DNA of 55,191 nucleotides, taken from a bacterium (GTDB lineage Bacteria; Actinomycetota; Acidimicrobiia; Spongiisociales; JAENVV01). Shown piece after piece: positions 14,205 through 39,495 of the stretch (its first letter is position 1; the number at the start of each line of letters is the position of its first letter). The stretch lies in NCBI GenBank assembly GCA_024641305.1, contig JAHEDI010000022.1, positions 1-55,191 of the forward strand. The letters are read 5' to 3'. Position numbers and translations under genes: made by a program. Below the pieces are notes generated by a model. It did no database searches. It saw only the letters and a program-made list of their open reading frames with translations, and was not told the origin of the DNA.

Positions 14205-14636
14205 TCAGCCGATTCGTCGACCCGAGATTTCATTCGGGACGATGCGAACCCAGTTGTTCCTGGCCACGGCGTCTGCCCATGGGCGGAGACCGAGGGTTTT
14301 CATTTCGCCTATTGCTTCGGGGTCTTCCACGTCCTGAGCAGTACCGCTGACGATCACGCTCCAACCGGTCTGGCTTTCCAGGTCCCAGCCATCGATCTCA
14401 AATCCGACCGAAGCAGCATTGCGTGCCGCGTCGAGCTTCTCGCCTGTGGTCGTTCGAAACACGACGTTCCCGCGGTGCATCCGATAATTGATCGGCATGA
14501 TCAACGGTTCTCCACCTGAAACGAATGCGATGCGACCAATCTGTTCTCGTTCAAGGAGGCGCCGACACTCCACCAGATCGAGTACCTCCAGTCCACCGTG
14601 ATCGGTGCCGCTGCTGCCGGGTGCTGAATACGTCAT
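14205..14636 (-). CDS. Pyridoxamine-5-phosphate-oxidase-like flavin protein
   Basis: 143 aa. The split-barrel flavin fold is visible: LLEREQIGRIAFVSGGEPLIMPINYRM, then GNVVFRTTTGEKLDAARNAASVGFEIDG and GWSVIVSGTAQDVED. This matches small actinobacterial FMN/F420-type oxidoreductases (Rv1155/nitroimidazole-resistance group). Its ATG overlaps the stop of the cyclase-ATPase gene by 4 bp (ATGA), so it is the second gene of that operon. Confidence 0.87.
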   Translation of the reverse strand: MTYSAPGSSGTDHGGLEVLDLVECRRLLEREQIGRIAFVSGGEPLIMPINYRMHRGNVVFRTTTGEKLDAARNAASVGFEIDGWDLESQTGWSVIVSGTAQDVEDPEAIGEMKTLGLRPWADAVARNNWVRIVPNEISGRRIG

Positions 14637-17260
14637 GACTCTCTCCCTGTGTATCGGTTCAATCCTATAGAAGTCTCTCTGCTTCGAGCCAGTTCAATGG
14701 CCTGGTCGAGCGAGAGCTTCGCCCCGCGGGCCATGAGCTCCTTGGTGGCGGTTTCGCCGAGGATCTCAACGAGACGAGACCTGGCATCTTGGATATCCAT
14801 GTTCATCGGCGTCCATCCACCGCCCATACGATCTCGCGCTTCGGCGGCGGCGCCAGCGAGTAGCCCACCAGTCTCGGTGTTTCCTTGAGCGACGATGGCG
14901 GTTGCCACCCATTCCATCGCCCAGGCGGCCACGAACCGATCCCCGGCCCGATCGGCCAGGTCGATACTGTGTTGGGCCACCCGCCGCGCCTCATCAAAGT
15001 CCCCATTGAGCACCGATGCCGACGCGATGGCCAGATTCAGTGAACCAGCCATGACGAACTGTTCCATGTCCTCATAGATGGCCAACGCCTCACGCATTTG
15101 CTTGAGTCCTGGCTCGATGCCTTCCGCGAACATAAGGTGGAGCGCCTCTGCGGATAGGAGATCGGCCAATCCGAGTTGATCGTTGACCTGCATATAGAGG
15201 ATGCGAGCGGATTCGAGAGCTGCGTTTCCTTCATCGAACATCCGAAGGTTCCCGAGAGAGGAGCCGAGGCCAAAGTAGGCATGCGCTTCCAGGTGCGGGT
15301 CGCCCACTGCGACGGCTGTTTGAACTGCCGTTCGGTAATCGTCGACCGCCTGGGAGAACTCCCCCCGCCAGTATGCGATGGCTCCGCGAGCCATCAGCGC
15401 CTTGACGAGCGGGCCTGAGGGGGTATCGGAATCGGGCAATGCAAATAGTCGGTCAAGCCACAGGGCCGCCTCACCCAATCTTCCTACCCCCCGGTAGTAA
15501 CGCCAGATACTCCCGATGATGTCGAATCCACGCTCGAAGTCGCCTGAGGTGAGCAGCCTTCCCAGCGTGCTTTGAAAATTTTCGTGATCATCACTGAGGG
15601 CGGCCAGCCGCCGTGCCGCGTGCCTTCCAACAAGATCGTCGGCCGAAGACCGGGCCAGATTCACAAAGAAGCTTGAGTGATGAGCTTCAGCTCCGGTGGT
15701 TTCTTCTCGTTCGGCCAGCTGAAGCGCCGAGAATTGTCGAACGCTGTCGAGAACGTCGAACCGTTTACCGGAGCTTGCGGTTTCAGACAGCACGAGACTG
15801 CGATCAACCAGCTCGGCCAGGTCGTCGACAACGTCGCGCCCTGATACCTCCTCGATGGCCGCGAAGGTGCCCCCGCCTCGAAACACCGCAAAAGAGCGCA
15901 GCACGGATTGCTGGCTTGGGGATAGCAGGTCATAGCTCCACGCAATAGCGTCGTTCAGTGATCGGTGACGCTGTGGGGCGTCAGAGGCCCGCGACGCAAG
16001 TAGAGAGGAATCGCGTTGGAGGCGCTCCAGGATCTGGGCCGGGGTCAACACGTTGACCCGGGCGGCGGCCAATTCGACGGCGAGCGGGAGTCCCCCGAGT
16101 AGAGAAACGAGTTCGGTAACATCTTCGAGGTGGTCATCTAACGAGAACCCAGGGTCAGCACCGCTCGCTCGGTTGGCAAACAATTCAACCGCCGGCGATC
16201 TGTCCCCGAAACCGTCGCCTCGATCGACCATCAACGGCGCTAGCCGGAACACACTCTCGCCAGAGATCCGCAGTGGAACCTGACTGGTGACGAGAATCTT
16301 CAAGGCCGGATGAGCGCTGAGAAGCTCTCCGATCGACGGAACCGCTTCGATCAAATGCTCCATATTGTCGAGTATCAACAAACGAGCTTCCGGGCCAAGC
16401 GCCCTAGCCATCTCGACCGCCCTGACTTCGTCAAGGCCCAGTTCGGCAGCGATACCGCTCAATACCAGAGCCGGATCCGTAACCGGAGCGAGCGGTATGA
16501 AGAACACGCCCGCCTCGAAATCGGCCAGCGCTTCGCCGGCCACCTCTATGGCGAGGCGGGTCTTTCCAACCCCACCGGGTCCGGTCAGCGTGACAAGACG
16601 ATGACTGCGAATCGACTCAAGCAGTTGACCGGTTGCCTCCTCCCTGCCGATGAGGCGAGAAGCAACGGTTGGCAAGTTGTTGGGACGCGCGTCGATCGTG
16701 CGTAGCGGTGGGAACGAATCGGGGAGGCCTGGAACGATCAGCTGATACAAGTGTTCTGGTCGTTCGAGGTCTTTGAGGCGGTGGGTGCCAAGGTCGATGT
16801 ATTCGGCGTCAAACGCCAGAACCTTGGTGGCTTCGGAAACGACCACCTGGCCACCATGGCCGGCCGCTGAAATCCGGGCAGCCCGGTGCACGTCCAGGCC
16901 GCCGTAGTTGGCACCGCCCAACTCACCCATCCCACTGTGCAATCCGATCCGGACCTTGATGGTGCCGCCATCGGGCCAATCGGCCTCCGCCAATCGCTGG
17001 TCAACCGCGATCGCCGCCCCGATGGCGTCCGGCGCAGTCGTGAACACCGCAAAGAACGAGTCACCTTCGGTGCCAAGTTCGATCCCGTGATAATCCTCGA
17101 GCGCCGATCGCACGATGACGCTGTGCCGGTCGAGCACCTCTCGAAACTCGTGGCCGAGCCGTTGGAGAGTTTTGGTGGAACCCTCGATGTCACTGAAGAA
17201 GAACGTGACCGTTCCCGTGGGAAGACCGCTCACGATCCCGGTCGCGAGATCATCAAACAC
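14633..17260 (-). CDS. Nucleotide cyclase - STAND ATPase - TPR protein (copy 1)
   Basis: 875 aa from GTG 17260. A class III cyclase domain is at about 16-180: metal Asp24 (FFFSDIEGST) and Asp67 (TEGDSFF) are present, but the Lys that contacts adenine is Gly63 and the conserved Asn is His125 (LDVHRAARI), while Arg129 is kept. Then a STAND/AAA ATPase with P-loop GPGGVGKT (227-234), Walker B LLILDN (294-299) and GLPLAVELAAARV, followed by TPR-like helices to the C-terminus. Such proteins act as signal-dependent switches. Altered residues make cyclase activity or base choice uncertain. It is translationally coupled to the flavin protein downstream. Confidence 0.88.
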   Translation of the reverse strand: MFDDLATGIVSGLPTGTVTFFFSDIEGSTKTLQRLGHEFREVLDRHSVIVRSALEDYHGIELGTEGDSFFAVFTTAPDAIGAAIAVDQRLAEADWPDGGTIKVRIGLHSGMGELGGANYGGLDVHRAARISAAGHGGQVVVSEATKVLAFDAEYIDLGTHRLKDLERPEHLYQLIVPGLPDSFPPLRTIDARPNNLPTVASRLIGREEATGQLLESIRSHRLVTLTGPGGVGKTRLAIEVAGEALADFEAGVFFIPLAPVTDPALVLSGIAAELGLDEVRAVEMARALGPEARLLILDNMEHLIEAVPSIGELLSAHPALKILVTSQVPLRISGESVFRLAPLMVDRGDGFGDRSPAVELFANRASGADPGFSLDDHLEDVTELVSLLGGLPLAVELAAARVNVLTPAQILERLQRDSSLLASRASDAPQRHRSLNDAIAWSYDLLSPSQQSVLRSFAVFRGGGTFAAIEEVSGRDVVDDLAELVDRSLVLSETASSGKRFDVLDSVRQFSALQLAEREETTGAEAHHSSFFVNLARSSADDLVGRHAARRLAALSDDHENFQSTLGRLLTSGDFERGFDIIGSIWRYYRGVGRLGEAALWLDRLFALPDSDTPSGPLVKALMARGAIAYWRGEFSQAVDDYRTAVQTAVAVGDPHLEAHAYFGLGSSLGNLRMFDEGNAALESARILYMQVNDQLGLADLLSAEALHLMFAEGIEPGLKQMREALAIYEDMEQFVMAGSLNLAIASASVLNGDFDEARRVAQHSIDLADRAGDRFVAAWAMEWVATAIVAQGNTETGGLLAGAAAEARDRMGGGWTPMNMDIQDARSRLVEILGETATKELMARGAKLSLDQAIELARSRETSIGLNRYTGRES

Positions 17261-18631: not shown

Positions 18632-21600
18632 CTATTTGATATCGATATTGCCGCCGTCCAGGCTCTGCTTTCTCGGGATGTTCAGCGTGCTGTCCCAGTT
18701 GGTCGAGAACAACAGGTGGCCGTCGGTCGGATGCCAGCCGGTGTAGGAAACCTTGTCGACCGTCAACGGATCGGAGTCGTCGTCTCCATCGGTCAGTCGC
18801 ACCTGCAACACCAGTTGAGGAACGACCACGACCGAAGTCGACAAATCGGTCAAGGTACCCGTGAAGGAAATGATTTCTCCAAGGATCCCGATCTTGCCGA
18901 CTGAGGTGATGTCCATCGCTTTAAGTTGGTAGTCCACAAGGGCGCCACTTGCCGGCACCCGATACAGGTACACGATGTTGATGTCGCCCTTGAGGCTGGC
19001 ACCCCTCTTGCCACTGTCGGCGTTGAACCCGAAGTTCTTCTTGCTGCCCGGGTCGGCCGGATACTGACCGGCTGAAGCTGCCAGCACAAGATTGCCACCA
19101 CCGGTGATCGTGTGCTGCACCCCTTTGAACACCACGACATTGCAGGTTCCCGCCGCGTTGGCAGAACCCTCGGGGCACCTTTGCGACGCAACCGTGTCAA
19201 GACCTCCACCGATCGGCATCCCACCGGCGGTCCCCGCCAACGTGGCGTTGACGACGTACGTGGTTCCGGTACCGGCGGCAGTGAATGTCTTGTTACAGAA
19301 CGCGGTTCCCGACGTCAAGGCACCAGTGGAATAGAGCGGTTGCACGGTCGCCGTACAGCCCAATCCCGCATTGCCTGCGACCGCGAACGTGACCGTTCCC
19401 CCTACCACCGTGCCACCGTCGGTCGAGGTCACGGTGACCCGTAACGGTGCATTCCCACCACTCTGCAATTGAGATACACCCACGTAGCGGAGCACGGCGT
19501 CGGTGACCGGCGTCACCGTGATGAAGACTGTTGCCGTGTTGCTGTCAGCCGTCCCATCGTTGGCTTTGAACGTGAAACTGTCCGGCCCGAAATAGTTGGC
19601 GGCAGGCGTGTACGTTAGGTTCGGGGCCGTTCCGGACAACGTTCCTTGGCTCGGCCCGCCTACCACCGAGTAGACGAGGGAGTTGCTATCGACATCGGAG
19701 GCGACGATGGTGAGATTCACCGGCGTATCCTCGGCTGTTGACACTGACTGGTTGTTCGCCACGGGCGAGTCGTTAACAGCCGTAACCATAATGGACACGG
19801 TCGCGGTGTTGCTATCAACCGTCCCGTCGTTGACTTTGAACGTGAAACTGTCCGGACCGAAATAATCGGCAGCAGGCGTGTAGATCAACACCGGTGCGGT
19901 GCCAGTCAACGTGCCGTGGGTTGGGCCAGACAGCACCGAATACGCCAATGGGTCAGCATCGACATCCGACGCCGACAGCACCAGGGCCTTCGCCGTATCT
20001 TCAGCGGTCGTTACAACCTGCCCACTGGCCACGGGAGCATCGTTCACCGGAGTAACCGTGATAGCCACCGTCGCCGTGTTGCTATCCACGGTTCCATCGT
20101 TGACCTTGAACGTGAAACTGTCCGGACCGAAATAATCGGCAGCAGGCGTGTACGTCCGGTTCGCACCCAACCCGGACAACGTTCCATGGGTTGGACCAGC
20201 CACCACCAAATACGCCAGGGTGTCACCATCGACATCCGACGCCGACAGCACCACTGCCTTGGCCGAATCTTCAGCGGTCGTTACAACCTGGCCACTCGCC
20301 ACGGGAGCGTCGTTCACCGAAGTAACCGTGATAGCCACCGTCGCCGTGTTGCTATCTACGGTTCCATCGTTGACCTTGAACGTGAAACCGTCCGGGCCGA
20401 AGTAGTCGGCCGCAGGCGTGTAGATCAAGACCGGTGCGGTGCCAGTCAGCGTGCCATGGGTTGGGCCTGCCACCACCGAATACGTCAGCGTGTCGTTGTC
20501 GACATCCGACGCCGACAGCACCAGGGCCTTCGCCGTATCTTCAGCGGTCGTTACAACCTGCCCACTGGCCACGGGAGCGTCGTTCACCGGAGTAACCGTG
20601 ACAGCCACCGTCGCCGTGTTGCTATCCACGGTTCCATCGTTGACCTTGAACGTGAAACTATCCGGACCGAAGTAATCGGCAGCAGGCGTGTAGATCAAGA
20701 CCGGGGCTGTGCCAGTCAGCGTGCCATGCGTCGGACCAGCTACCACCGAATACGTCAACACGTCACCATCGGCATCAAACGCTGACAACGTGACTGTCAC
20801 GGTCGTGTCCTCGGCCGTCGATACCGACTGATCATCCGCCACTGGAGCGTCGTTGACGGCATTGACCAAGATCGTGAAGACGTCGGAGACATTTCCGGCT
20901 CCATCGGTTGCGATCACGGTGACCGTTGCCTGGCCGTTGGCGTTGGTTCCCAACGTGAGGGTCAAGACGGAACCAGTGATTGACGTCGTCACGACACTCG
21001 TAGCGCTTGAGGTCGCCGTGTAGGTGAGTCCATCACCTTCGACGTCCGAAAAGACCGTGTCGAGGTCGATCGAGGGAATAGATCCATCTTCGTCAATGAC
21101 AATGTCGCCAATCGGATTGGCAACAAACGGGGCGTCGTTGACCGCCGTGATCACGATGTTGACAGTCGCCGTCGCACATAGCGTGACGAATCCAAAGTCG
21201 CACACCCGGTAGTTGAACGAATCAGTCCCGTTGAAGTTCAGGTTCGGCGTGTAAGTCACTTTCCCGTCGCCATTCGAAACGGCAGCGCCATTGGTCGGTC
21301 CGGAGAGGACGGTCACGGAGGCGACATTGAGATTCGAATCGGGATCCGAGTCGTTGCCAACCACGTTGATGACCACCGGAGTGTCTTCGTCGGTTGTCAC
21401 CGAGTCGTCGTTGGCGACCGGTGGACTGTTCGGGCTAATGACGAACACGCGCAGCGTGTCAATGGCGGAAAAATCGACCCCGTCGGACACTGAAATCGTC
21501 ACCGTGTAGACGCCGGCGGTCAAATAAGTGTGCGGGTCGATGATGAACGTTCCGGCACCCTCGTTGACAGAGCTGGCGGTCCCCAAAAGCGTGCCATCGC

Positions 21601-24600
21601 CCCAATCGACGGACACCGAATGAACCCCCGCGGTCGGGTCATCGAAGGTTCCGTTGATTGGCTGCGTGGACTGGCCGAGTTCGACGACCTGGTCTTGACC
21701 CGCCGACAGCAACTTGGCGACGAGGCCGAGGCCCTTGCCGCTGATGAACCCACAGTTGCCGTTCTCATCACAGAACTGGAAATAGGCCCGTACTTGAGAG
21801 AAGGGCGCGGCAACCGTTGCGGTCCATTGCCTGGTGCCGGGGATTCTTTGCAGGTCGACGAACGTATGGGGTGACGATGCGTCCCCCGTGGTAAGCCCAG
21901 CATCGCGGTAGATCGCCTGGGCAAACACCACGCTGTCAACCTCACCGGGTGCGGGATCGTCGGTCAGCTCAAGCAGGAATGTCAGCTGGCCGTTATCGAG
22001 GAAAAGCTCAGAGCCGAGCGCCACCGGCGGTTCGAAGTCGGTGGAATCACTGTAGAGAACCCGCCAGCGGGTGGTCGGGAAGATGGTCTGAACGCCGCTG
22101 GAACTCGACTCGTCGCGGTCCCATACGAACTGACCGAGGACCGCATTGAATCGCTGCTGGCGACCGGTCCGGCTGAGATTGAATTCGCTGACACTTTCAA
22201 ACACTGAAGGAAAGGCGATGTCCTTGATGAGGGCGTATGGTCGACCCTCGTTGGCGGCCAGGTCGATGCGGGGTCGTGACAGGACCGGGACAAACGGATC
22301 AATGTCCGTGTAAGTAAGCCCTTGATCCCCGCTGGTTGGGATCATGATCGACCCGCGAGCGGTAAGGGTCGGATCGCCATTGGTAACGTCAATCGAGATG
22401 GACGGCTGGATGGGTGCATAGTGGACGGCCAGCGGTCGCTTGTCGGTGACGGTCAAGGAACCGGCGGTTGCAGTCGCGGTCGTCAAATACCGACCACCCT
22501 CGGGTGAGATGATCTCACTAAACGAGGCGTTGACCGTGAAGTCAAGCTTTTCGACGCCTGCCCCATGAGCCCACGGAGTGGTGGTGACACCCGGAGCCGA
22601 CACGGCCGCCAGCGACGCGGCCACCGCGGAAGGACCAAGCTGGTACATCGGAAGGCCGTAATACGTGGCTTCCTGAACGACTTTGAGGTCGTAAACACCG
22701 GCCTGCTGTTGCTCGCCAATGTATAGCTGCTTGGCGTCGCGCAGGGCATCGGCCGGGGACCGACCAGAGTTGATTTCCATCTGTTCTGTGAACAGCTCCA
22801 TGAGCCGCTCGGAGTAGTACACACCGTCTGTGTCGCCGTAGCCATATCCAGTGTTGGCTATATACACGGCACGCTGCTGAGCGATGGCCTGCGGCCAGTC
22901 GAGGCTCTCGACCGTCGTATAGAAGTTGTCGTCGACATTGAGACCCGAGTGACATCCAACACTGAACAGAATCTTGTTGGCAAGGGTCCCGGCCGCCGGC
23001 AGTTCTGAGGTGTCATAGGTGGTGCCGACTGCGTCGGTGGCATCGACCTTGGCTGGCAACGACCGGAAGTGGTCGTAATGGCCTTCGACCGACATGATGT
23101 CCTTGTTGAGGGCGATCTTGCTCGCTAGGTCGTCGGCCGTCCATGTGTCGCTGATGAGCGAGTCAATCATGGCGGCTGGGAGACCGGCCTGCTCAAGGGC
23201 GCTTACAACGGCCCCGGCACCGTCGAGGAGGAAGTCATATCCGGTGACCAGGGCGCTGGATCGATCGAGTTGGGCATCGTTGGCGATGAACTCGTCGATG
23301 AGTCCGATGATCTCGGTCGAGTCTTCGACAAGGCGACCAAGGGAGATGTCCGGCTGGAACAAAACCCCGGATTGCTTCAACAACGCCAGAGGATCCCGGT
23401 CCCCGTACCCGTCATCGGTGAGGAAACGTTGGGAGGCCGAAGACCCGTAGAGTGCCGTATCAGCTTTGAAGGTGCTCTTGTAGAGCGCTTCGTTCGACAC
23501 GGCCGACCAGTCGCGCTGGCGGAAGAAGGGAATCTCGCTGTCCGATCCGACGACCGTGACGAATTTGAGCGGGTGGTTCGTGTCGAGGTCTTTGACGATC
23601 TTGGTGATCTCATTTGCGACCAGATTGGCAAGCCTGTAATCGCACGGGTCCTCATCCCAGTCCGCATACAGGGCCCTGATCTGCGCACCAGACGTCGACG
23701 TGACTCCGGCCGCCGTCAGGTCACCCTCGACCGAAATAACCGCGGCATGCAATCCGAGCCCGGCCAGTTCCGGGTCACCGCCGTTGAGAGCGTCGACCAG
23801 ATCGTGAAGTTTGGCGACGACCGCATCGGCAGCAGCCGTGCCTTCATGGCGTTCAATCCGCGCCCGGTTGACGAGGAACACCGTGTCGAGGGCCCCGAGT
23901 TGTCCAGGGGTCAAGAGCGCTGGATAGATTTCCCCGGGGTTTCCAACGTTACCCGGCGCAGCCGGGCAGCTGACCGGCTCGGCGTACTGGGTGCTCACCC
24001 AAAGCGTATAGGTGGAATTGGATACTTCGTCGGTGGTCGGTGTCGTGGTGTGGTTAACGCTCGCCACTTGAATCGTCAACGGATCGCCAAGTGGATCCGC
24101 CGTGAAAAACTCGACACTTTCGTCCTGCTTTGAGCGGCTTATCGATAGTCCTTCCAGTTCCCACGGCCCATTGAGCAGCTCCTTAGACAGGACGATGTCC
24201 TGCAAAGCTTCCGGGTCGAGATCATCGGTGAGGTCGCCGATGGCGAGTCCGCGATCGTCGAGCGGTTCGATCTGCAAGGAGTTGCCCCGGTCGGGGAACG
24301 GACTCAAGTCCGGCGTTACCGGACCATAGGCAATGAGATCGGCATCGACCCCGAGTTGGGCAAGCTTGATCGTATACACCCCGTCGGAACCATCCGGGAC
24401 CGCATCGGGAACGAAGCTCCAGTAGTCGTTGTCCGAAGGTGGCGCATGGCCGAATAGCAGGGTGTCGGCATCGATAGGGACGCCCGCACTGTCGTTGTTC
24501 AGAGGCTCAAAGTTCTGGACGACGGTTACCGGCGCAGATCGCAGGAGGTCGCTGGCGGTATCCACAGTCACACCGACGGAAACACTGAAGGTTCCAAGCG

Positions 24601-27600
24601 TCAGTCCGGGGACGGCGGCGAAGGTGAGGGTATAGAGCCCGGTTCGTATATCCCCGAGATCAAAAGTCAATTGTTGCCCGATCATCGTCGGCTCGACAGA
24701 GTTAACCCCCAGCTCACCGGTATTCGGTACGTACCGGAAGCCGTCCTCGAGGGTGACCACGGCAGTGCCCGGCTTGAGATTGTCCCCCGGTGTCTTGACA
24801 TCAAACTCAGCCGAGTACTGAATTGTCTGGGCGTTGTCACTGGCATCCAGCAGCACTTGTACAGGGACCTGGGCGACCGGCAGCTGCTCCCACGGCAAGT
24901 CACCCTTCGGGATGAGGGCCGTCAGCAGCATGCCATAGGTTGCGCCAGGCCGGAAGGCATCGGCCAACAAGACATCCTTGAGCGTTCCGGACGTACAAGA
25001 CACCTTTGAGCAATCGACCAGGTCGTTGAGGATCACCGCGTCGATGGCTCCCAGCTGAATCGCCCCCAGCTGAATGGCGCCCAACTGAATGGCACCCAAC
25101 TGAGCGCCGACGATATTCGTCGGGTTATTGAGGAATACAAGTAACTCAAGGAGACTCTTATCAGCTTGGAATGCATGGGCCTCCACGACATCCTCGATCG
25201 TCGCTGTAGCTGAGCAAACTCCGCCGGGCATCAACGAGCAGTTGATGACCTCACCGATCGCGCCAAGCTGGATCGCCCCCAACTGAATCGCCCCCAACTG
25301 AATCGCCCCGAGCTGAATAGCACCAAGCTGAATCGCCCCCAGTTGGATAGCCCCCAACTGGATAGCCCCAAGCTGGACTCCGTTGAGGTCCAGGCTGAGC
25401 AGGCTCGGGTTGTCATAGATCTTGAGGTCCACACAGTCGTAGCCTTGAGCCGTAACGGCAACACACCAGTCGCCGAGATTTGCATCAATGGCCCCGAGCT
25501 GGAGTCCGCCGATGGCCAGAGACATGAGGCTTAGCGAACCGAGTTCGCTTGACCCCACCTTGAGGTTCTGAAGTGTCAGCGAGGCGATGGCATTCTTCAC
25601 ACAACTGGACTCGGAACCGCTGGTCGTCAAGGCGAACAAGTCGTCGATCGTGACCGTTTGGGTGGGAGCGTCGCGATATGTATTGGTAAACGCCACCAAC
25701 TCGTCACCCGTTATCGAACCATCACCATCTCGATCGGCCAGGGAAATGTCAGAGGTGGTACATCCCGCAATGGCCCCCAGTTGGATCGCCCCCAACTGGA
25801 TCGCCCCCAACTGGATCGCCCCCAACTGGATCGCCCCCAACTGGATCGCCCCAAGCTGAATCGCCCCAAGCTGAATCGCCCCAAGCTGAATCGCCCCAAG
25901 CTGAGACCCTTCTACCGACGCATCGGACGGGTTTCCGGTGGCCGTTGCCTGCCGGAGGGCCTGGAGGGCTGCGGAACTGGCCGCCAACGTCGGTATGTCG
26001 AGCTTGGACGGGAAGGCTCCGACAACACCAAGATCGGCAGAAACGCTCGTAACGTCAACGGTGGTCACGGCACCGATTACCAACGTGGTTGCCACTGCAG
26101 AATTGTTCGAAGGAACCGAGTCTGTTTCGGCACCTGACACCGATGCGGTATTTGAAAGCGTCACGTTGTCGAGCGAGGGGTCAACGGTCCCTCGAATCTT
26201 GACGACAGCTGATGCTCCCGACGCCAGCGATCCGATGGCGATCGAGCCACCGAAAGCGGAGAAGCCCGAGTCGGAAAGGCAGTCCACAGTGGCGGTCACG
26301 CTGCACGCTTGCGCATTGCTGAGGGCATCCGGAAGCGTGTCGCTAACTGTCGACGTCGACGAGGTTGAAGGTCCCCCGTTGGTGACCGTGATCGTGTAAG
26401 TAAGCAGGGTGCCGGCATCGACGGGATCGGGCGTGTCGACAATCGAAATGGACAGATTGGCAATACCGGCCTCGACCGAGCCGATGTCGCAAGTCGGTCC
26501 TTGTGGCCGGGCCACGTTGCGCTGGTCGATGGCTGCACAGGTGGCGTTGTTGGCGGTGTTGATCGCCGGGCTGCCGATTTGTGGCAAGTGGGTGAAGGTT
26601 GGCCCGCCGTTGTCGGCAAGCGGTCCAAGCGTCGGGTTACCGGTCGTCAGGTTGAACCCACCCCCGCCAAACGTGCCGAACACGTTGTTCGGACTGCCGG
26701 TATTTCCGGCCACGATGGAGTTGGACAGATTGAGGACGCCAGCCGACACCGTGATGCCACTCCCTTGCGCAGAAGCGTTGGCAGTCACCGTGACGTTGTT
26801 GAACGTGGTGCCGTTGTTGCTCGACTCGAACAAGCCACCACCCGAGACCGTGGCCGTGTTCCCACTGATGGTTGAGTTGGCCCCGGTGATGGTTCCGGCA
26901 ATGTTGTAGACGCCACCGCCACGAGTCGTCGACGTATTGCCGCTGATCGTCGAGCGGGTGAGCGTGAGGCCGGTGCTGTTGTAGATCCCGCCTCCGCCGT
27001 CGAGGGTGGCTCTGTTTCCCGAAATAGTCGATTCGACGATCACCACGGGGCCGCTGCTGTTGGTGAAGTAGGTACCGCCACCAGTACCAGCGGTGTTGTC
27101 CTTGATTACTGACCGGGTATAGCTCGACGCCGGACCGGAGGTAGCACTGTTCTCGAAGATGCCACCGCCCTTGCCGGCCGCCGTGTTGCCGGAAACCGTC
27201 GAGTCGGTCAGCGTAAAGCCGAGACCCACGTCGTAGATGGCTCCCCCGTCTCGTTGGGTGGCGTTCCCCGTGAAGGTGCTGCCAGTAATGCTCAGGACGC
27301 CGTCGTTCCAGACTGCTCCTCCGTCTTGGATTGCCATGTTCTGATCGAACGTCGAGCTGGTAACGGTGACGGTCCCTGACAGAACAACCAGCGCGCCCCC
27401 CTCGCCGGCCCCCGTGTCGGGTGCTTCGGCGCGGTTCTTGCTGAACGTGGTGTTGGCGATGGTGGCGGTGCCGGACCGGACCATGACACCTCCACCGTTG
27501 TTCTTGGCGACATTGTTACTGACGACACTGTTGGTGATCGTCAGGTTGCCTTTGTCAACGACAACGCCGGCCCCGGCATTTTCCGAGTTCCCGGTGACAA

Positions 27601-28033
27601 TGACGTTGGTGAGGATCAAGTCGCCGTCGGCGGAGTGGATACCACCACCACTACTCAAACTCGACGAACGCGCCCCTCTGGTGATGGTCAGACTCTCGAC
27701 CGTCAGGTTCTTGGCCTTCCCCTTGTCGATCACCGTACCTTTGAGGTCACCGTCGATGATGGTGGAAAGCGGATCGTCGCCTCGTAGCGTCACCGACGCG
27801 TTGTTGGGAAGAACCAGGTTTTCCTTGTAGATCCCAGGGGCAATCGTGATCAGGGGTTCCTTGGCGTCGATCGCCTTCTGAATGGTGAGGTACTGGCCAG
27901 GAACTACGTATGTCGTTTGGGCGATAGCCGCTTGTGAGAGCAGAGGGACGGCCGGCATCCCGGCTGTAACCATCGAGAATGAAGAGATAACGACGATCAG
28001 CGGGCGCCAAAGCACCCGATTGGCGTTTCGCAT
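18632..28033 (-). CDS. Giant secreted multidomain protein with C25 peptidase-like region
   Basis: 3133 aa from ATG 28033 (GGAGG ten bases upstream). Order: signal peptide 1-38 (AIA cleavage); right-handed beta-helix about 40-500 with many SGNTA/GGGI turns; a choice-of-anchor-Q-like end (CDIGSVEAG, about 520); DUF11 domain about 525-660; three arrays of QLGAI pentapeptides (about 710-755, 885-926, 978-998), the first followed by a perfect EF-hand loop DRDGDGSITGDE; a gingipain-like C25 region about 1480-1760 with candidate catalytic His1652 (VEGHYDHF) and Cys1694 (SVGCHSG); a PKD domain about 2105-2200; two cadherin/Big_9-type domains; five 90-residue Ig-like repeats 2394-2845; and a C-terminal beta domain. 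No sortase or other anchor is seen. It is probably an exported adhesin/protease. Confidence 0.9.
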   Translation of the reverse strand: MRNANRVLWRPLIVVISSFSMVTAGMPAVPLLSQAAIAQTTYVVPGQYLTIQKAIDAKEPLITIAPGIYKENLVLPNNASVTLRGDDPLSTIIDGDLKGTVIDKGKAKNLTVESLTITRGARSSSLSSGGGIHSADGDLILTNVIVTGNSENAGAGVVVDKGNLTITNSVVSNNVAKNNGGGVMVRSGTATIANTTFSKNRAEAPDTGAGEGGALVVLSGTVTVTSSTFDQNMAIQDGGAVWNDGVLSITGSTFTGNATQRDGGAIYDVGLGFTLTDSTVSGNTAAGKGGGIFENSATSGPASSYTRSVIKDNTAGTGGGTYFTNSSGPVVIVESTISGNRATLDGGGGIYNSTGLTLTRSTISGNTSTTRGGGVYNIAGTITGANSTISGNTATVSGGGLFESSNNGTTFNNVTVTANASAQGSGITVSAGVLNLSNSIVAGNTGSPNNVFGTFGGGGFNLTTGNPTLGPLADNGGPTFTHLPQIGSPAINTANNATCAAIDQRNVARPQGPTCDIGSVEAGIANLSISIVDTPDPVDAGTLLTYTITVTNGGPSTSSTSTVSDTLPDALSNAQACSVTATVDCLSDSGFSAFGGSIAIGSLASGASAVVKIRGTVDPSLDNVTLSNTASVSGAETDSVPSNNSAVATTLVIGAVTTVDVTSVSADLGVVGAFPSKLDIPTLAASSAALQALRQATATGNPSDASVEGSQLGAIQLGAIQLGAIQLGAIQLGAIQLGAIQLGAIQLGAIQLGAIAGCTTSDISLADRDGDGSITGDELVAFTNTYRDAPTQTVTIDDLFALTTSGSESSCVKNAIASLTLQNLKVGSSELGSLSLMSLAIGGLQLGAIDANLGDWCVAVTAQGYDCVDLKIYDNPSLLSLDLNGVQLGAIQLGAIQLGAIQLGAIQLGAIQLGAIQLGAIQLGAIGEVINCSLMPGGVCSATATIEDVVEAHAFQADKSLLELLVFLNNPTNIVGAQLGAIQLGAIQLGAIQLGAIDAVILNDLVDCSKVSCTSGTLKDVLLADAFRPGATYGMLLTALIPKGDLPWEQLPVAQVPVQVLLDASDNAQTIQYSAEFDVKTPGDNLKPGTAVVTLEDGFRYVPNTGELGVNSVEPTMIGQQLTFDLGDIRTGLYTLTFAAVPGLTLGTFSVSVGVTVDTASDLLRSAPVTVVQNFEPLNNDSAGVPIDADTLLFGHAPPSDNDYWSFVPDAVPDGSDGVYTIKLAQLGVDADLIAYGPVTPDLSPFPDRGNSLQIEPLDDRGLAIGDLTDDLDPEALQDIVLSKELLNGPWELEGLSISRSKQDESVEFFTADPLGDPLTIQVASVNHTTTPTTDEVSNSTYTLWVSTQYAEPVSCPAAPGNVGNPGEIYPALLTPGQLGALDTVFLVNRARIERHEGTAAADAVVAKLHDLVDALNGGDPELAGLGLHAAVISVEGDLTAAGVTSTSGAQIRALYADWDEDPCDYRLANLVANEITKIVKDLDTNHPLKFVTVVGSDSEIPFFRQRDWSAVSNEALYKSTFKADTALYGSSASQRFLTDDGYGDRDPLALLKQSGVLFQPDISLGRLVEDSTEIIGLIDEFIANDAQLDRSSALVTGYDFLLDGAGAVVSALEQAGLPAAMIDSLISDTWTADDLASKIALNKDIMSVEGHYDHFRSLPAKVDATDAVGTTYDTSELPAAGTLANKILFSVGCHSGLNVDDNFYTTVESLDWPQAIAQQRAVYIANTGYGYGDTDGVYYSERLMELFTEQMEINSGRSPADALRDAKQLYIGEQQQAGVYDLKVVQEATYYGLPMYQLGPSAVAASLAAVSAPGVTTTPWAHGAGVEKLDFTVNASFSEIISPEGGRYLTTATATAGSLTVTDKRPLAVHYAPIQPSISIDVTNGDPTLTARGSIMIPTSGDQGLTYTDIDPFVPVLSRPRIDLAANEGRPYALIKDIAFPSVFESVSEFNLSRTGRQQRFNAVLGQFVWDRDESSSSGVQTIFPTTRWRVLYSDSTDFEPPVALGSELFLDNGQLTFLLELTDDPAPGEVDSVVFAQAIYRDAGLTTGDASSPHTFVDLQRIPGTRQWTATVAAPFSQVRAYFQFCDENGNCGFISGKGLGLVAKLLSAGQDQVVELGQSTQPINGTFDDPTAGVHSVSVDWGDGTLLGTASSVNEGAGTFIIDPHTYLTAGVYTVTISVSDGVDFSAIDTLRVFVISPNSPPVANDDSVTTDEDTPVVINVVGNDSDPDSNLNVASVTVLSGPTNGAAVSNGDGKVTYTPNLNFNGTDSFNYRVCDFGFVTLCATATVNIVITAVNDAPFVANPIGDIVIDEDGSIPSIDLDTVFSDVEGDGLTYTATSSATSVVTTSITGSVLTLTLGTNANGQATVTVIATDGAGNVSDVFTILVNAVNDAPVADDQSVSTAEDTTVTVTLSAFDADGDVLTYSVVAGPTHGTLTGTAPVLIYTPAADYFGPDSFTFKVNDGTVDSNTATVAVTVTPVNDAPVASGQVVTTAEDTAKALVLSASDVDNDTLTYSVVAGPTHGTLTGTAPVLIYTPAADYFGPDGFTFKVNDGTVDSNTATVAITVTSVNDAPVASGQVVTTAEDSAKAVVLSASDVDGDTLAYLVVAGPTHGTLSGLGANRTYTPAADYFGPDSFTFKVNDGTVDSNTATVAITVTPVNDAPVASGQVVTTAEDTAKALVLSASDVDADPLAYSVLSGPTHGTLTGTAPVLIYTPAADYFGPDSFTFKVNDGTVDSNTATVSIMVTAVNDSPVANNQSVSTAEDTPVNLTIVASDVDSNSLVYSVVGGPSQGTLSGTAPNLTYTPAANYFGPDSFTFKANDGTADSNTATVFITVTPVTDAVLRYVGVSQLQSGGNAPLRVTVTSTDGGTVVGGTVTFAVAGNAGLGCTATVQPLYSTGALTSGTAFCNKTFTAAGTGTTYVVNATLAGTAGGMPIGGGLDTVASQRCPEGSANAAGTCNVVVFKGVQHTITGGGNLVLAASAGQYPADPGSKKNFGFNADSGKRGASLKGDINIVYLYRVPASGALVDYQLKAMDITSVGKIGILGEIISFTGTLTDLSTSVVVVPQLVLQVRLTDGDDDSDPLTVDKVSYTGWHPTDGHLLFSTNWDSTLNIPRKQSLDGGNIDIK
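19501..20850 (-). repeat. Five 270-bp tandem repeats inside the giant gene
   Basis: Five direct repeats with an exact 270-bp period (boundaries near 19501, 19771, 20041, 20311, 20581 and 20851) encode 90-residue Ig/cadherin-like domains beginning VNDAPVA and containing YTPAADYFGPDSFTFKVNDG. The three central copies are nearly identical in DNA; the outer copies have drifted. This indicates recent duplication or homogenisation. Confidence 0.9.
25042..25103 (-). repeat. QLGAI array 3 (4 units of 15 bp)
   Basis: Four 15-bp units encoding QLGAI, ending in DAVILND. The copies differ mainly at third codon positions, so selection on the peptide is likely. Confidence 0.9.
25258..25380 (-). repeat. 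QLGAI array 2 (8 units of 15 bp)
   Basis: Eight consecutive QLGAI units between LDLNGV and GEVINCS. A single further unit (LQLGAID) lies about 110 bp to the right, near 25490. Confidence 0.9.
25770..25907 (-). repeat. QLGAI array 1 (9 units of 15 bp)
   Basis: Nine QLGAI units. Four adjacent units share one DNA spelling and the next four almost share another, which shows expansion by block duplication. The array is followed by AGCTTSD and an EF-hand loop. Confidence 0.92.
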
Positions 28034-28170
28034 AATGTTAAGGCCTCCGAGCCAAGAATGGACTAGATGGTCCACCCTGGGTCCGAGGATACACCCGCCA
28101 AATTAGGCGCGATGGATATATTTTCAAGGCGATTACGCACTAGTCACATAGCGCGGAACATTCCTGCCCA

Positions 28171-33210: not shown

Positions 33211-36200
33211 ATTTTCTGCAATAACTGTGGCAAGGAAAACCCCGCGGACAGCAAGTTCTGTCGCGCCTGCGGCCATGGGTTGGCATCCACGTGCCCGAAG
33301 TGTTCGGCAGAGGTAACCCCCGGTGACAGCTTCTGTGGCAATTGCGGAAACCAGATCGGGCAGACAGCGGCCGCTCCCCAACCGGCGCCGACCGAAACGA
33401 CGTCCGGATCCGACGCCGAGAAACGGTTCGTATCAGTCCTCTTCGCCGACATCGTCGCCTACACCACGTTCTCGGAAGGCCGGGACCCCGACGAAGTCCG
33501 GGACCTGCTGACCGTCTATTTCGATCGGGCCAGGGCCATCATCGAAAAGTTCGGCGGGTTCGTCGACAAGTTCATCGGCGACGCGGTCATGGGTGTGTGG
33601 GGGGCCGAAACCACCCGTGAGGACGACTGCGAACGGTCGGTACGAGCAGCCCTCGAACTCGTTTCCATGGTGGCCGCCCTTGGCGAAGAACAGGGCCACG
33701 ACGGCCTACAACTCCGTGCCGGAGTCAACTCGGGATCGACCTCGGTCGGGCCGGGGGGCAACGAGAAGGGACTCATCGTTGGCGACCTCGTGAACGCCGC
33801 CGCCCGCCTGCAGTCGGCGGCCGAACCCGGGACGGTCTTTGTGGGTGGAGCCACCCACGACGTTACCGCCCGATCCATTGTGTACGAATCGCGCGGCAAC
33901 CTGGAAGTCAAAGGCAAGACCGACCTGGTCGAAGCCTGGCGAGCAGTCCGACCAGCCGGCCGGGTGGGCCGCGAAATCGATGGCCGCGAACTCCCCTTCA
34001 CCGGTCGCGACCGCGAAATGCGTCTACTCAAGGACATGCTCGAAGCCACCTCGGCAGAACAGCGAGCCAGACTCGTTTCCATCACTGGGGAGGCAGGCAT
34101 CGGCAAGTCCCGGTTGGGCCGCGAATTCATGAACCACGTCGACGGCTTCTCAGAGACGGTGTTCTGGCACCAGGGACGGTCCCCTTCCTATGGTGACGGC
34201 CTGCCGATGTGGGCGGTGGGCGAAATGATCCGGCAACGCGCCGGCATCGCCGAAGACGAAGAACCCAGCCGGACACTCACCCGCCTCCGCACGTGCCTGG
34301 CCGAATACGTACCCGAAGATCAGGACCGCCAATGGATCGAAGGATGGCTGGCCGGTCTCCTGGGATTGGGCGAAATGCCCTCAGGTGGGGGTTCTGAGCT
34401 TCACTCGGCGATCCGCGCCTTCTTCCAGAGCATCGCCACACACGGAACGACAGTCCTGGTCTTCGAGGATCTCCATTGGGCCGACGCCTCGCTGGTCGAA
34501 TTCGTCGGAGAACTGGTCGATCGGTCAACCCGATCACCCATCCTTGTGGTCACGCTCGCCCGACCCGAACTCCTGCAGCGATTCCCCGGCTTCGGATCGG
34601 CGCAGCGCTCGTCGATGTCCGTGAGCTTGGCACCTTTGGTCGACGCCGACATGTCGGCCATGCTGACCGAGCACCTCCCTGGCGTGGCACCCGATGTTAT
34701 TGCCCACATCGTCGGCCGAGCCTCGGGCTTTCCTCTTTACGCGGCTGAAATCGTACGAATGCTCACCAACGACGGATCACTCGTCCAGGCTGACAAAGGT
34801 TGGCAGTTTAGTGGCACCGCCGACAACCTGGCCGTCCCCGACACGCTCCAGGCGGTGATCGAAGCACGATTGGATCGGCTCGAACCCGACGCACGGTCGG
34901 TGCTCCAAGACGCCTCGGTCCTCGGTTTAAGCTGCACGGCGGCCGGCCTGGCCGCGGTCGGCCACCAGGCGAGTCTCGATGCCAAGCTTCGCCAACTGGT
35001 TCAGCTGGAACTGCTCGAAGTCGAGGATGATCCCCGATCCCCCGAGCGTGGCCAATACCGTTTTGTTCAAGGTGTCATTCAGGAAATCGCTTATGGCCGG
35101 CTTCATCGGGCCGACCGTCGTGACCGTCACCTGGCCGCCGCCGAATACTTTCAAACGTTCGACGATCCCGAGCTAGCCGGTGTCATATCTTCTCATTATC
35201 AGAAAGCCTTCGAGTCATCACCACCGGGTGAGCAACGAAACGCCCTTGAGCGTCGGGCCATCGACGCCCTCGTGACGGCTGCCGAACGCGCCGCCAACCT
35301 CCACGCCGACGGCCAGGCCATGGACCTATACGATCAGGCCATCGCTTTTACATCTGACCAACACGACGTGGGCGATTGGTGCCTGCGGGCGGCCCGATCA
35401 GCCGGTGACGAGGGGTCGTTCGAACGGGGCGCTTCGTATCTGAGCCGGGCCGAACAGGCATTTGAGCAGATAGACGATCAGATAGGGCTTATGCGGACCG
35501 CTACCCAACGAAGCATCCTGTTCAACGGATCGTTTTCATCACCTCATGCCGTTGCGGCTATCGAACCCTCCTACCTGGCACTTCAAGACATCAACGACGA
35601 CGTATCGCTAGGCGTGGCAGCCGAAGCAGCCCGCGGCTACGCCTTAATTGGCAGACTCGACGAGGCATTGACGGTGGCAGATCGTGCATTGCCTGTCGCC
35701 AACGGACTGGGACGCACGGACGTGATTGCCGAATTACTCGTGACCCGGGCGACCGCGTTGTCATTCGCCGGTCGTAACATCGAGGCGCAAGCGGGCCTGC
35801 GAGGAGCGCTTGAGGTGTCGGAACAGGAAGGCCTGCTCGACACTTCGGTCCGGGCTTTGAACAACCTTATCTCGGTGATGACCGGCTACAGCTTCGCGGC
35901 GTCCTACGCCCTGATGCCCAGGTACAACGAGCTCACCGAACGAAGCGGCAAATCCGAATGGCTGGTGAGGGCCCGGTTCAACATGTCGGACATGGCGTGG
36001 GGACGGGCCGCCTGGGATGAATACAGCGACTGGGCGAATCGAATCGAGGAACTTGTCAGCGATCCGTATTGGGAGTCGGTGCTTGCGGTCATGAGAATCG
36101 GAAGAGATGCGCATAGGGGTGTGCCGGGCGCGGCGGCCCGCTGGCTGGCGATGGTCGAAAAGGTTGACAGCGACGATCCGCAGAGTCATGCCAACGCCGA

Positions 36201-36675
36201 ATTGTTACGAGCATGGGCGTGCGCCCTCGATGGCGACTGGCGGCCCGCCTACGAACATGGCGTGGCTGCCTCCAGTCTTATGTGGGACGCGTTCCCGACC
36301 GTCGCCCGAGCAGCCGTACGATTGGGTGACCCGTCGCTGCTGGACAATCCAGAGAAACAACTCGAAGGGTCTGCCAAGGGACCGGCCAGATTGGCCGTCA
36401 AAGCGCTATTTGGTGCAACCCGCCAGGCGATGCACGATGACCCCACCGCGAGCCTGAGTTTCGTCTCAGTGCTCGGCGCGATGGCCGCGGTTGGCACCGA
36501 TCTGCTTGTGGCGCAGACGAAGCTGGTGTTCGCCGAATCGGCCGGTCTCGACGACCCGGCCGCAGCTCAGGCAGCTGAAGAGGTTGCCGACTGGATCGAG
36601 CAAACCGGCACATACGGCCTGCTCGCCTCCTCAAGCGTATTGGATACTCCGGTCGCGGCCGCCGAGGCCGGCTGA
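33211..36675 (+). CDS. Zinc-ribbon - adenylate cyclase - STAND ATPase protein (copy 2)
   Basis: 1154 aa if ATT 33211 is the start. The in-frame stretch upstream of TTG 33280 encodes a complete zinc ribbon (MFCNNCGKEN onward; Cys3/6/17/20), and GGAGGG sits 8 bases before ATT. No ATG, GTG or TTG fits, as a stop lies at 33172. A second ribbon has Cys28/31/42/45. The cyclase domain has every catalytic residue: Asp80, Asp124, adenine Lys120 (DKFIGD), Asp192, Asn195 and Arg199, so an active adenylate cyclase is likely. The ATPase has GEAGIGKS (293-300) and FEDLHWAD (417-424), then TPR-like helices. Second in the operon is LtrA copy 2. Confidence 0.88.
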   Translation: MFCNNCGKENPADSKFCRACGHGLASTCPKCSAEVTPGDSFCGNCGNQIGQTAAAPQPAPTETTSGSDAEKRFVSVLFADIVAYTTFSEGRDPDEVRDLLTVYFDRARAIIEKFGGFVDKFIGDAVMGVWGAETTREDDCERSVRAALELVSMVAALGEEQGHDGLQLRAGVNSGSTSVGPGGNEKGLIVGDLVNAAARLQSAAEPGTVFVGGATHDVTARSIVYESRGNLEVKGKTDLVEAWRAVRPAGRVGREIDGRELPFTGRDREMRLLKDMLEATSAEQRARLVSITGEAGIGKSRLGREFMNHVDGFSETVFWHQGRSPSYGDGLPMWAVGEMIRQRAGIAEDEEPSRTLTRLRTCLAEYVPEDQDRQWIEGWLAGLLGLGEMPSGGGSELHSAIRAFFQSIATHGTTVLVFEDLHWADASLVEFVGELVDRSTRSPILVVTLARPELLQRFPGFGSAQRSSMSVSLAPLVDADMSAMLTEHLPGVAPDVIAHIVGRASGFPLYAAEIVRMLTNDGSLVQADKGWQFSGTADNLAVPDTLQAVIEARLDRLEPDARSVLQDASVLGLSCTAAGLAAVGHQASLDAKLRQLVQLELLEVEDDPRSPERGQYRFVQGVIQEIAYGRLHRADRRDRHLAAAEYFQTFDDPELAGVISSHYQKAFESSPPGEQRNALERRAIDALVTAAERAANLHADGQAMDLYDQAIAFTSDQHDVGDWCLRAARSAGDEGSFERGASYLSRAEQAFEQIDDQIGLMRTATQRSILFNGSFSSPHAVAAIEPSYLALQDINDDVSLGVAAEAARGYALIGRLDEALTVADRALPVANGLGRTDVIAELLVTRATALSFAGRNIEAQAGLRGALEVSEQEGLLDTSVRALNNLISVMTGYSFAASYALMPRYNELTERSGKSEWLVRARFNMSDMAWGRAAWDEYSDWANRIEELVSDPYWESVLAVMRIGRDAHRGVPGAAARWLAMVEKVDSDDPQSHANAELLRAWACALDGDWRPAYEHGVAASSLMWDAFPTVARAAVRLGDPSLLDNPEKQLEGSAKGPARLAVKALFGATRQAMHDDPTASLSFVSVLGAMAAVGTDLLVAQTKLVFAESAGLDDPAAAQAAEEVADWIEQTGTYGLLASSSVLDTPVAAAEAG

Positions 36676-39297: not shown

Positions 39298-39317
39298 ACC
39301 CGGGCCAATCCCCGGGT
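39298..39317. promoter_or_regulatory. Inverted repeat in hydrolase/cyclase divergent region
   Basis: ACCCGGG and CCCGGGT flank a 6-nt CCAATC. Located 28 bp upstream of the hydrolase start. Possible operator; no factor can be assigned. Confidence 0.3.
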
Positions 39318-39495
39318 GCTCGGTCGCACCGAATCGTATGCATTCCCGTGTCGCCGGAGAGAAGGATTTCCGAACTTTGATCAGTCGGATGCCAGGGCGC
39401 TCCGATTCTCCACCCTCCGGCCAGAAGCCAGAACCGGCAGGCATCAGGGCCAAGAAGTATCGTTGAGAGCCGAGGGTCCGGATACGGAGGCAGGC

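Follow-up and report, generated by a model that had tools for sequence, protein, structure and literature searches.

A giant predicted exported protein of an Acidimicrobiia bacterium joins short-repeat arrays to a C25-type cysteine peptidase domain

The protein encoded at positions 18632-28033 of the stretch of DNA analysed here (the window, 55,191 nucleotides) is probably a cysteine endopeptidase of the C25 kind, exported by the Sec route as part of a giant secreted or surface protein with targeting modules. For this protein, P0001, the gene, the order of its domains, a conserved His/Cys dyad, a predicted clan CD fold and an array-plus-peptidase architecture are established. P0001 belongs to a widespread and apparently undescribed family whose members nearly all carry an array along with the C25 domain, and we found no account of this repeat-array and C25 combination in the open-access literature.

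Results

Gene, export signal and domain layout

The open reading frame proposed by an earlier sequence-only reading (18632-28033, 3133 residues) had correct coordinates, with minus as the coding strand; stops occur throughout the plus strand across 18632..28033. Translation from the ATG at 28033 gives 3133 residues, and an alternative GTG at 28075 would give 3147. Outside the peptidase domain and the arrays, the features are as follows.

18632..28033, minus strand: gene for the 3133-residue exported protein P0001 (open reading frame and translation; stop codon 18632-18634)
27920..28033, minus strand: Sec-type signal peptide, residues 1-38 (basic start, hydrophobic core, AIA/Q; read by eye)
26459..27901, minus strand: parallel beta-helix / PMP-like repeats ending in a choice-of-anchor Q domain, residues 45-525 (Chlam_PMP PF02415; NF041518 at 466-522)
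26087..26452, minus strand: DUF11 domain, residues 528-649 (PF01345, E=1e-17)
23936..24898, minus strand: two beta-sandwich-like domains, DUF11-like and then PPC-like with a long insert, residues 1046-1366 (model strands, moderate confidence)
21704..22603, minus strand: region after the peptidase, residues 1811-2110 (position in full-length translations)
19694..21703, minus strand: PKD and seven cadherin/Big_9 (tandem-95) repeats, residues 2111-2780 (PF17963, PF17892, PF18911, NF012211)
18635..19693, minus strand: C-terminal region, residues 2781-3133 (sequence, hydropathy)

The beta-helix and Ig repeats that had been proposed from the letters are matched by curated models (DUF11, cadherin/Big_9, Chlam_PMP and choice-of-anchor Q). 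Pfam gave no match for residues 1046-1366 of the window copy, and a PPC match (PF04151) was found at the corresponding place in the relative L102. Residues 1811-2110 were likewise without a Pfam match; in gingipains an Ig-like domain stands directly after the catalytic domain, and this region is possibly a domain of that kind.

The N-terminal Sec signal sequence, MRNANRVLWRPLIVVISSFSMVTAGMPAVPLLSQAAIA followed by QTT (an eye reading, not program output), has its hydrophobic maximum near residue 12. At the C-terminus, sequence and hydropathy revealed neither an LPXTG motif nor a membrane span, and Pfam and NCBIfam scans of P0001 found no C-terminal signal domain for type IX secretion. From this absence it had been concluded that a different export route is needed, which is not supported for a protein with a Sec-type signal in this host. 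Acidimicrobiia are actinobacteria with a single membrane, for which Sec suffices, so that the absence of a type IX signal is no surprise. C25 peptidases exported by Sec are also already known outside Bacteroidota: according to PMC6752024, they outnumber every other exported class in estuary sediment, and their genes made up 41-45% of the signal-peptide-bearing peptidase genes in one such sediment.

A conserved peptidase domain with a predicted clan CD fold

22604..23926, minus strand: C25-type (clan CD) cysteine peptidase domain, residues 1370-1810 (alignment A2, model pLDDT 89.4, Foldseek, PF01364 in relatives)
23078..23080, minus strand: codon of predicted catalytic His1652 (invariant in 97/97 homologues)
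22952..22954, minus strand: codon of predicted catalytic Cys1694 (invariant in 97/97 homologues)

The residue numbers reported earlier are right, as VEGHYDHF starts at 1649 (His1652) and SVGCHSGLN at 1691 (Cys1694). Homologues were collected from the host genome and 59 relatives first, then with a profile over the class and then over the phylum, and 32 of them were aligned (alignment A2). Eleven columns are invariant throughout this alignment, His1652 and Cys1694 among them, and both residues are present in all 97 non-redundant homologues of the wider set, a conservation far beyond chance. Adhesive repeats make up most of the chain, as would suit a non-catalytic adhesin in which the clan CD domain is a relic scaffold; the invariance of His and Cys across 97 homologues, together with the 11 invariant columns (a count that applies only to the 32-row alignment), makes such a relic extremely unlikely.

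A C25 profile search had been suggested as a check on the identity of the domain, and it came out negative for the window copy, which did not match Pfam Peptidase_C25 (PF01364) even at E=10, but positive for 20 of the 32 aligned homologues, several of them above the 23-bit cut-off and at full length. Chloroflexota relatives match model positions 4-374 of 374 (L102, E 2e-10) and 26-374 of 374 (L136, E 1e-10). Pfam, NCBIfam and PDB sequences gave no direct C25 match for the window copy, and the family profile found no gingipain by sequence in PDB. PorU is the sortase-like transpeptidase of type IX secretion, and a PorU-related N-terminal match in two of the 32 members (best E 0.0075) would fit an enzyme of that sort that attaches proteins to the cell surface. 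These matches are weak and few, two ordinary sortases are present in the host genome, and we saw no partner sharing a C-terminal signal; we judge a transpeptidase to be very unlikely.

The AlphaFold2 model computed from alignment A2 (pLDDT 89.4, pTM 0.89) has strands at 1646-1649 and 1688-1690, directly before His1652 and Cys1694. The claim of a parallel strand before each residue thus stands as to the presence of the strands, while their parallel orientation comes from the fold match and not from coordinates. Foldseek with the domain model returned Craspase/SAVED CHAT proteases, separases and CED-3 at a probability of 0.96-1.0, all of which we take to share the caspase-type fold; BFVD structures gave no match with E <= 0.001. 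The comparison with gingipain that had been proposed therefore produced a confident clan CD fold but no gingipain chain among the 50 structural matches listed. Together with the full-model PF01364 matches of relatives, the structural matches agree with the gingipain/caspase-like catalytic domain and His/Cys dyad described by the sequence-only reading. That reading had named a predicted structure with His1652 and Cys1694 non-adjacent as evidence against it, and the model, judged by its strand positions and fold matches, gave no sign of such a separation. From alignment and model, residues 1370-1810 are predicted to be a C25-type cysteine peptidase by descent with putative catalytic residues intact, and P0001 would be expected to have peptidase activity.

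Repeat arrays in P0001 and across the family

25769..25903, minus strand: QLGAI array 1, 9 units, residues 711-755
25256..25375, minus strand: QLGAI array 2, 8 units, residues 887-926
25043..25102, minus strand: QLGAI array 3, 4 units, residues 978-997

One lone QLGAI at residue 845 brings the total in P0001 to 22 units, which are written in 16 DNA spellings, and within the host genome two successive copies of QLGAI occur only in the P0001 gene. These stretches had been described as QLGAI solenoids. The units are present, but a solenoid fold is not confirmed: AlphaFold2 of residues 640-1366 (9 sequences) gave no confident fold (pLDDT 47, pTM 0.31), and neither pentapeptide- nor hexapeptide-repeat models of Pfam matched anywhere in P0001. 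Pentapeptide-repeat (RFR) and left-handed hexapeptide beta-helices resemble the arrays in their period of 5 or 6 and in the aliphatic residues of each unit, and P0001 differs from them in matching none of their Pfam models, in having no confidently predicted fold and in that all positions are uniform within the protein; a weak PF13599 match (E 0.28) was seen in the relative L118. Between arrays 1 and 2 lies an EF-hand/dockerin-like calcium loop, DRDGDGSITGDEL (residues 764-782, DNA 25688-25744, minus strand), with a weak EF-hand match (E 0.006).

Genome contigs scanned with the alignment yielded 188 loci, of which 80 were kept; an earlier contig scan with the single P0001 sequence had returned zero relatives, and plasmid records gave no match. 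The kept loci come from Acidimicrobiia, Nocardioides and other Actinomycetota, many Chloroflexota and a few MAGs labelled Proteobacteria. An array was defined as a run of 40 residues with 60% or more identity at lag 5 or 6, and was sought in members with 400 or more residues ahead of the peptidase domain (n=82). By this definition an array precedes the peptidase in 74 of the 82 members (period 5 in 52, period 6 in 22), with at least 24 identities of 40 against a maximum of 14/40 in the shuffle control, which is cleaner than the control open reading frames, since these also pick up the same arrays read in antisense or out of frame. The domain order that had been called unusual is thus not peculiar to P0001, and its array-plus-peptidase core is common to a family. 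Chloroflexota arrays mostly end about 60-80 residues before the peptidase (in L102 the array comes after the first half of the PPC domain), and in most Acidimicrobiia the array lies 340-650 residues upstream of the peptidase, before the DUF11-like and PPC-like domains. C-terminal ends vary: a 3699-residue member (L006:3054-14150, plus strand) finishes in RTX-like GGxGxD calcium repeats, and L005 finishes in a different C-terminal domain.

The arrays are near-perfect repeats whose words are uniform within a protein and different between proteins, with about 55-60 words in 78 proteins (59 as counted; somewhat fewer with rotations merged), among them PLGAI, PVSSI, PIASL, PLQNI, SPSVF, PDAFS, GQLADI and GQIGNI. 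Three successive copies of PLGAI were found in only 2 of 296 genomes of the class, and all places listed are inside the C25 gene. The word of a whole array can differ between related domains (PISSL versus PLAAV at 71% identity) and between paralogues of one genome (PLNAF and PLSAI in G179; PLRGV and PSIYS in G357). Neighbouring units have diverged at silent sites (median pS 0.58), so the arrays are not fresh duplications; pN between units is biased low, as units were chosen for protein likeness, and arrays with varied codons may be the only ones that short-read assembly retains. An origin by recent DNA slippage was disfavoured on the same pS and on the number of spellings of the QLGAI units. 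Fourteen of the 31 proteins with a distant array show their own word again between array and peptidase, and this recurrence was dropped as a sign of long-range linkage because most cases are array tails missed by the cut-off.

These arrays bear on a second explanation, in which the peptidase mainly cuts its own chain, maturing P0001 by releasing either the half with the beta-helix and arrays or the half with the Ig repeats, or cutting inside the arrays so that the repeats are substrate or product. Identical units diverged at silent sites are the expected look of a multi-copy product, and in some relatives, such as L037 with PVSSI, the array word reappears in the PPC-like part that immediately precedes the peptidase. 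C25 peptidases usually have Arg or Lys at P1 and an acidic S1 residue, as Asp163 of RgpB, and the QLGAI units contain neither Lys nor Arg; moreover, the word is absent nearer the peptidase in 17 of the 31 distant-array proteins, and most recurrences lie at the array tail itself. Self-processing has precedents in gingipain zymogens, which cleave themselves (PMC4357240), and in the internal caspase-like domains of large bacterial surface proteins, which are thought to be autoprocessing (PMC3482391). Overall, we regard self-cleavage as the main activity of P0001, the leading alternative, as unlikely.

A double-cyclase gene partner in relatives

A class III cyclase-family gene lies no more than 800 bp away at 46 of the 82 loci with room for one, and at 34 of the 48 with room on both sides. 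The typical partner is about 1250-1350 residues long and combines two cyclase domains with AAA_16 and TPR, a layout like that of soluble adenylyl cyclase; partners are seen beside the peptidase gene at L007:41-3997 (plus strand), L006:14197-18000 (plus strand) and some 40 other family loci. The orientation of the partner varies, so the pair is not a simple operon. The double-cyclase profile was found in 21/21 genomes with the peptidase family versus 10/25 without it (Fisher 1.2e-5, ignoring shared ancestry), and some genomes scored as peptidase-lacking may be broken at contig ends. In one of these (G023), an Ig-rich exported-type open reading frame adjoining a double cyclase runs off the contig (L166:10055-11254, minus strand), and its peptidase gene may merely be unassembled.

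The one double cyclase of the host genome is on a different contig (L162:1687-5406, G000:C64), where it extends to the contig end, and is not beside the P0001 gene. The cyclase partnership is a property of the family, seen in relatives and not at the P0001 locus. Within the window, three proteins combine a single cyclase with AAA or NB-ARC-like ATPase domains (14633-17260, minus strand; 33280-36675 and 39316-42246, plus strand), two of them with TPR matches.

A simple scavenging protease does not explain the double-cyclase neighbour of relatives, which counts against the C25 endopeptidase reading as stated above. A more speculative proposal, which we hold to be doubtful, is that each array is a protein-specific word read by its own copies on neighbouring cells, by the peptidase or by a partner. 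Selection on the protein would keep the word uniform, with wholesale replacement during the divergence of lineages and paralogues, and the peptidase and the double-cyclase/ATPase/TPR protein would form a pair that links extracellular recognition to cyclic-nucleotide signalling.

Discussion

We favour a Sec-exported C25-kind endopeptidase because the dyad is invariant, the model is confident, structural matches and PF01364 in relatives point the same way, adhesive modules flank the domain on both sides, and arrays precede it in most members. It is weakened by the absence of a direct PF01364 match for the window copy and of gingipain by sequence or among the structural matches listed. From this evidence we infer catalysis, an extracellular location, a substrate and any role of the arrays: P0001 would be held on a surface or polymer by its beta-helix at the N-terminus and its cadherin/Ig repeats at the C-terminus, the His1652/Cys1694 dyad would cleave proteins outside the cell, and the pentad arrays before the peptidase may present the catalytic domain by serving as a docking surface or a regular spacer.

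Most of the detailed knowledge of C25 peptidases comes from a single oral pathogen. P0001 is like the gingipains RgpB and Kgp (C25, clan CD) in that His and Cys come directly after core strands and in that relatives match PF01364 at full length, and differs in that the Pfam model does not match the window copy, no C-terminal domain of the type IX kind was found, and the chain is giant and multi-domain with tandem pentads. The Sec-exported C25 enzymes of sediment bacteria and archaea share with it a signal peptide and an origin outside Bacteroidota; repeat arrays, giant architecture and a gene partner are not among the features described in the available part of that source, unlike in the P0001 family (PMC6752024). 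In the internal caspase-like peptidases that process large surface proteins and polymorphic toxins, a clan CD domain likewise sits mid-chain in a giant exported protein (PMC3482391), and P0001 differs from them in having no recognised C-terminal toxin domain and in belonging to a specific C25-type subfamily with its own array.

The above analyses place P0001 in a wide family of fixed plan, in which a uniform block of short repeats is followed by a peptidase. In relatives, the conserved neighbour with cyclase and ATPase domains points to a regulated system more than to plain scavenging. That the words change in concert between close relatives, despite diverged silent sites within each array, is a testable puzzle for how such arrays evolve and for what reads them.
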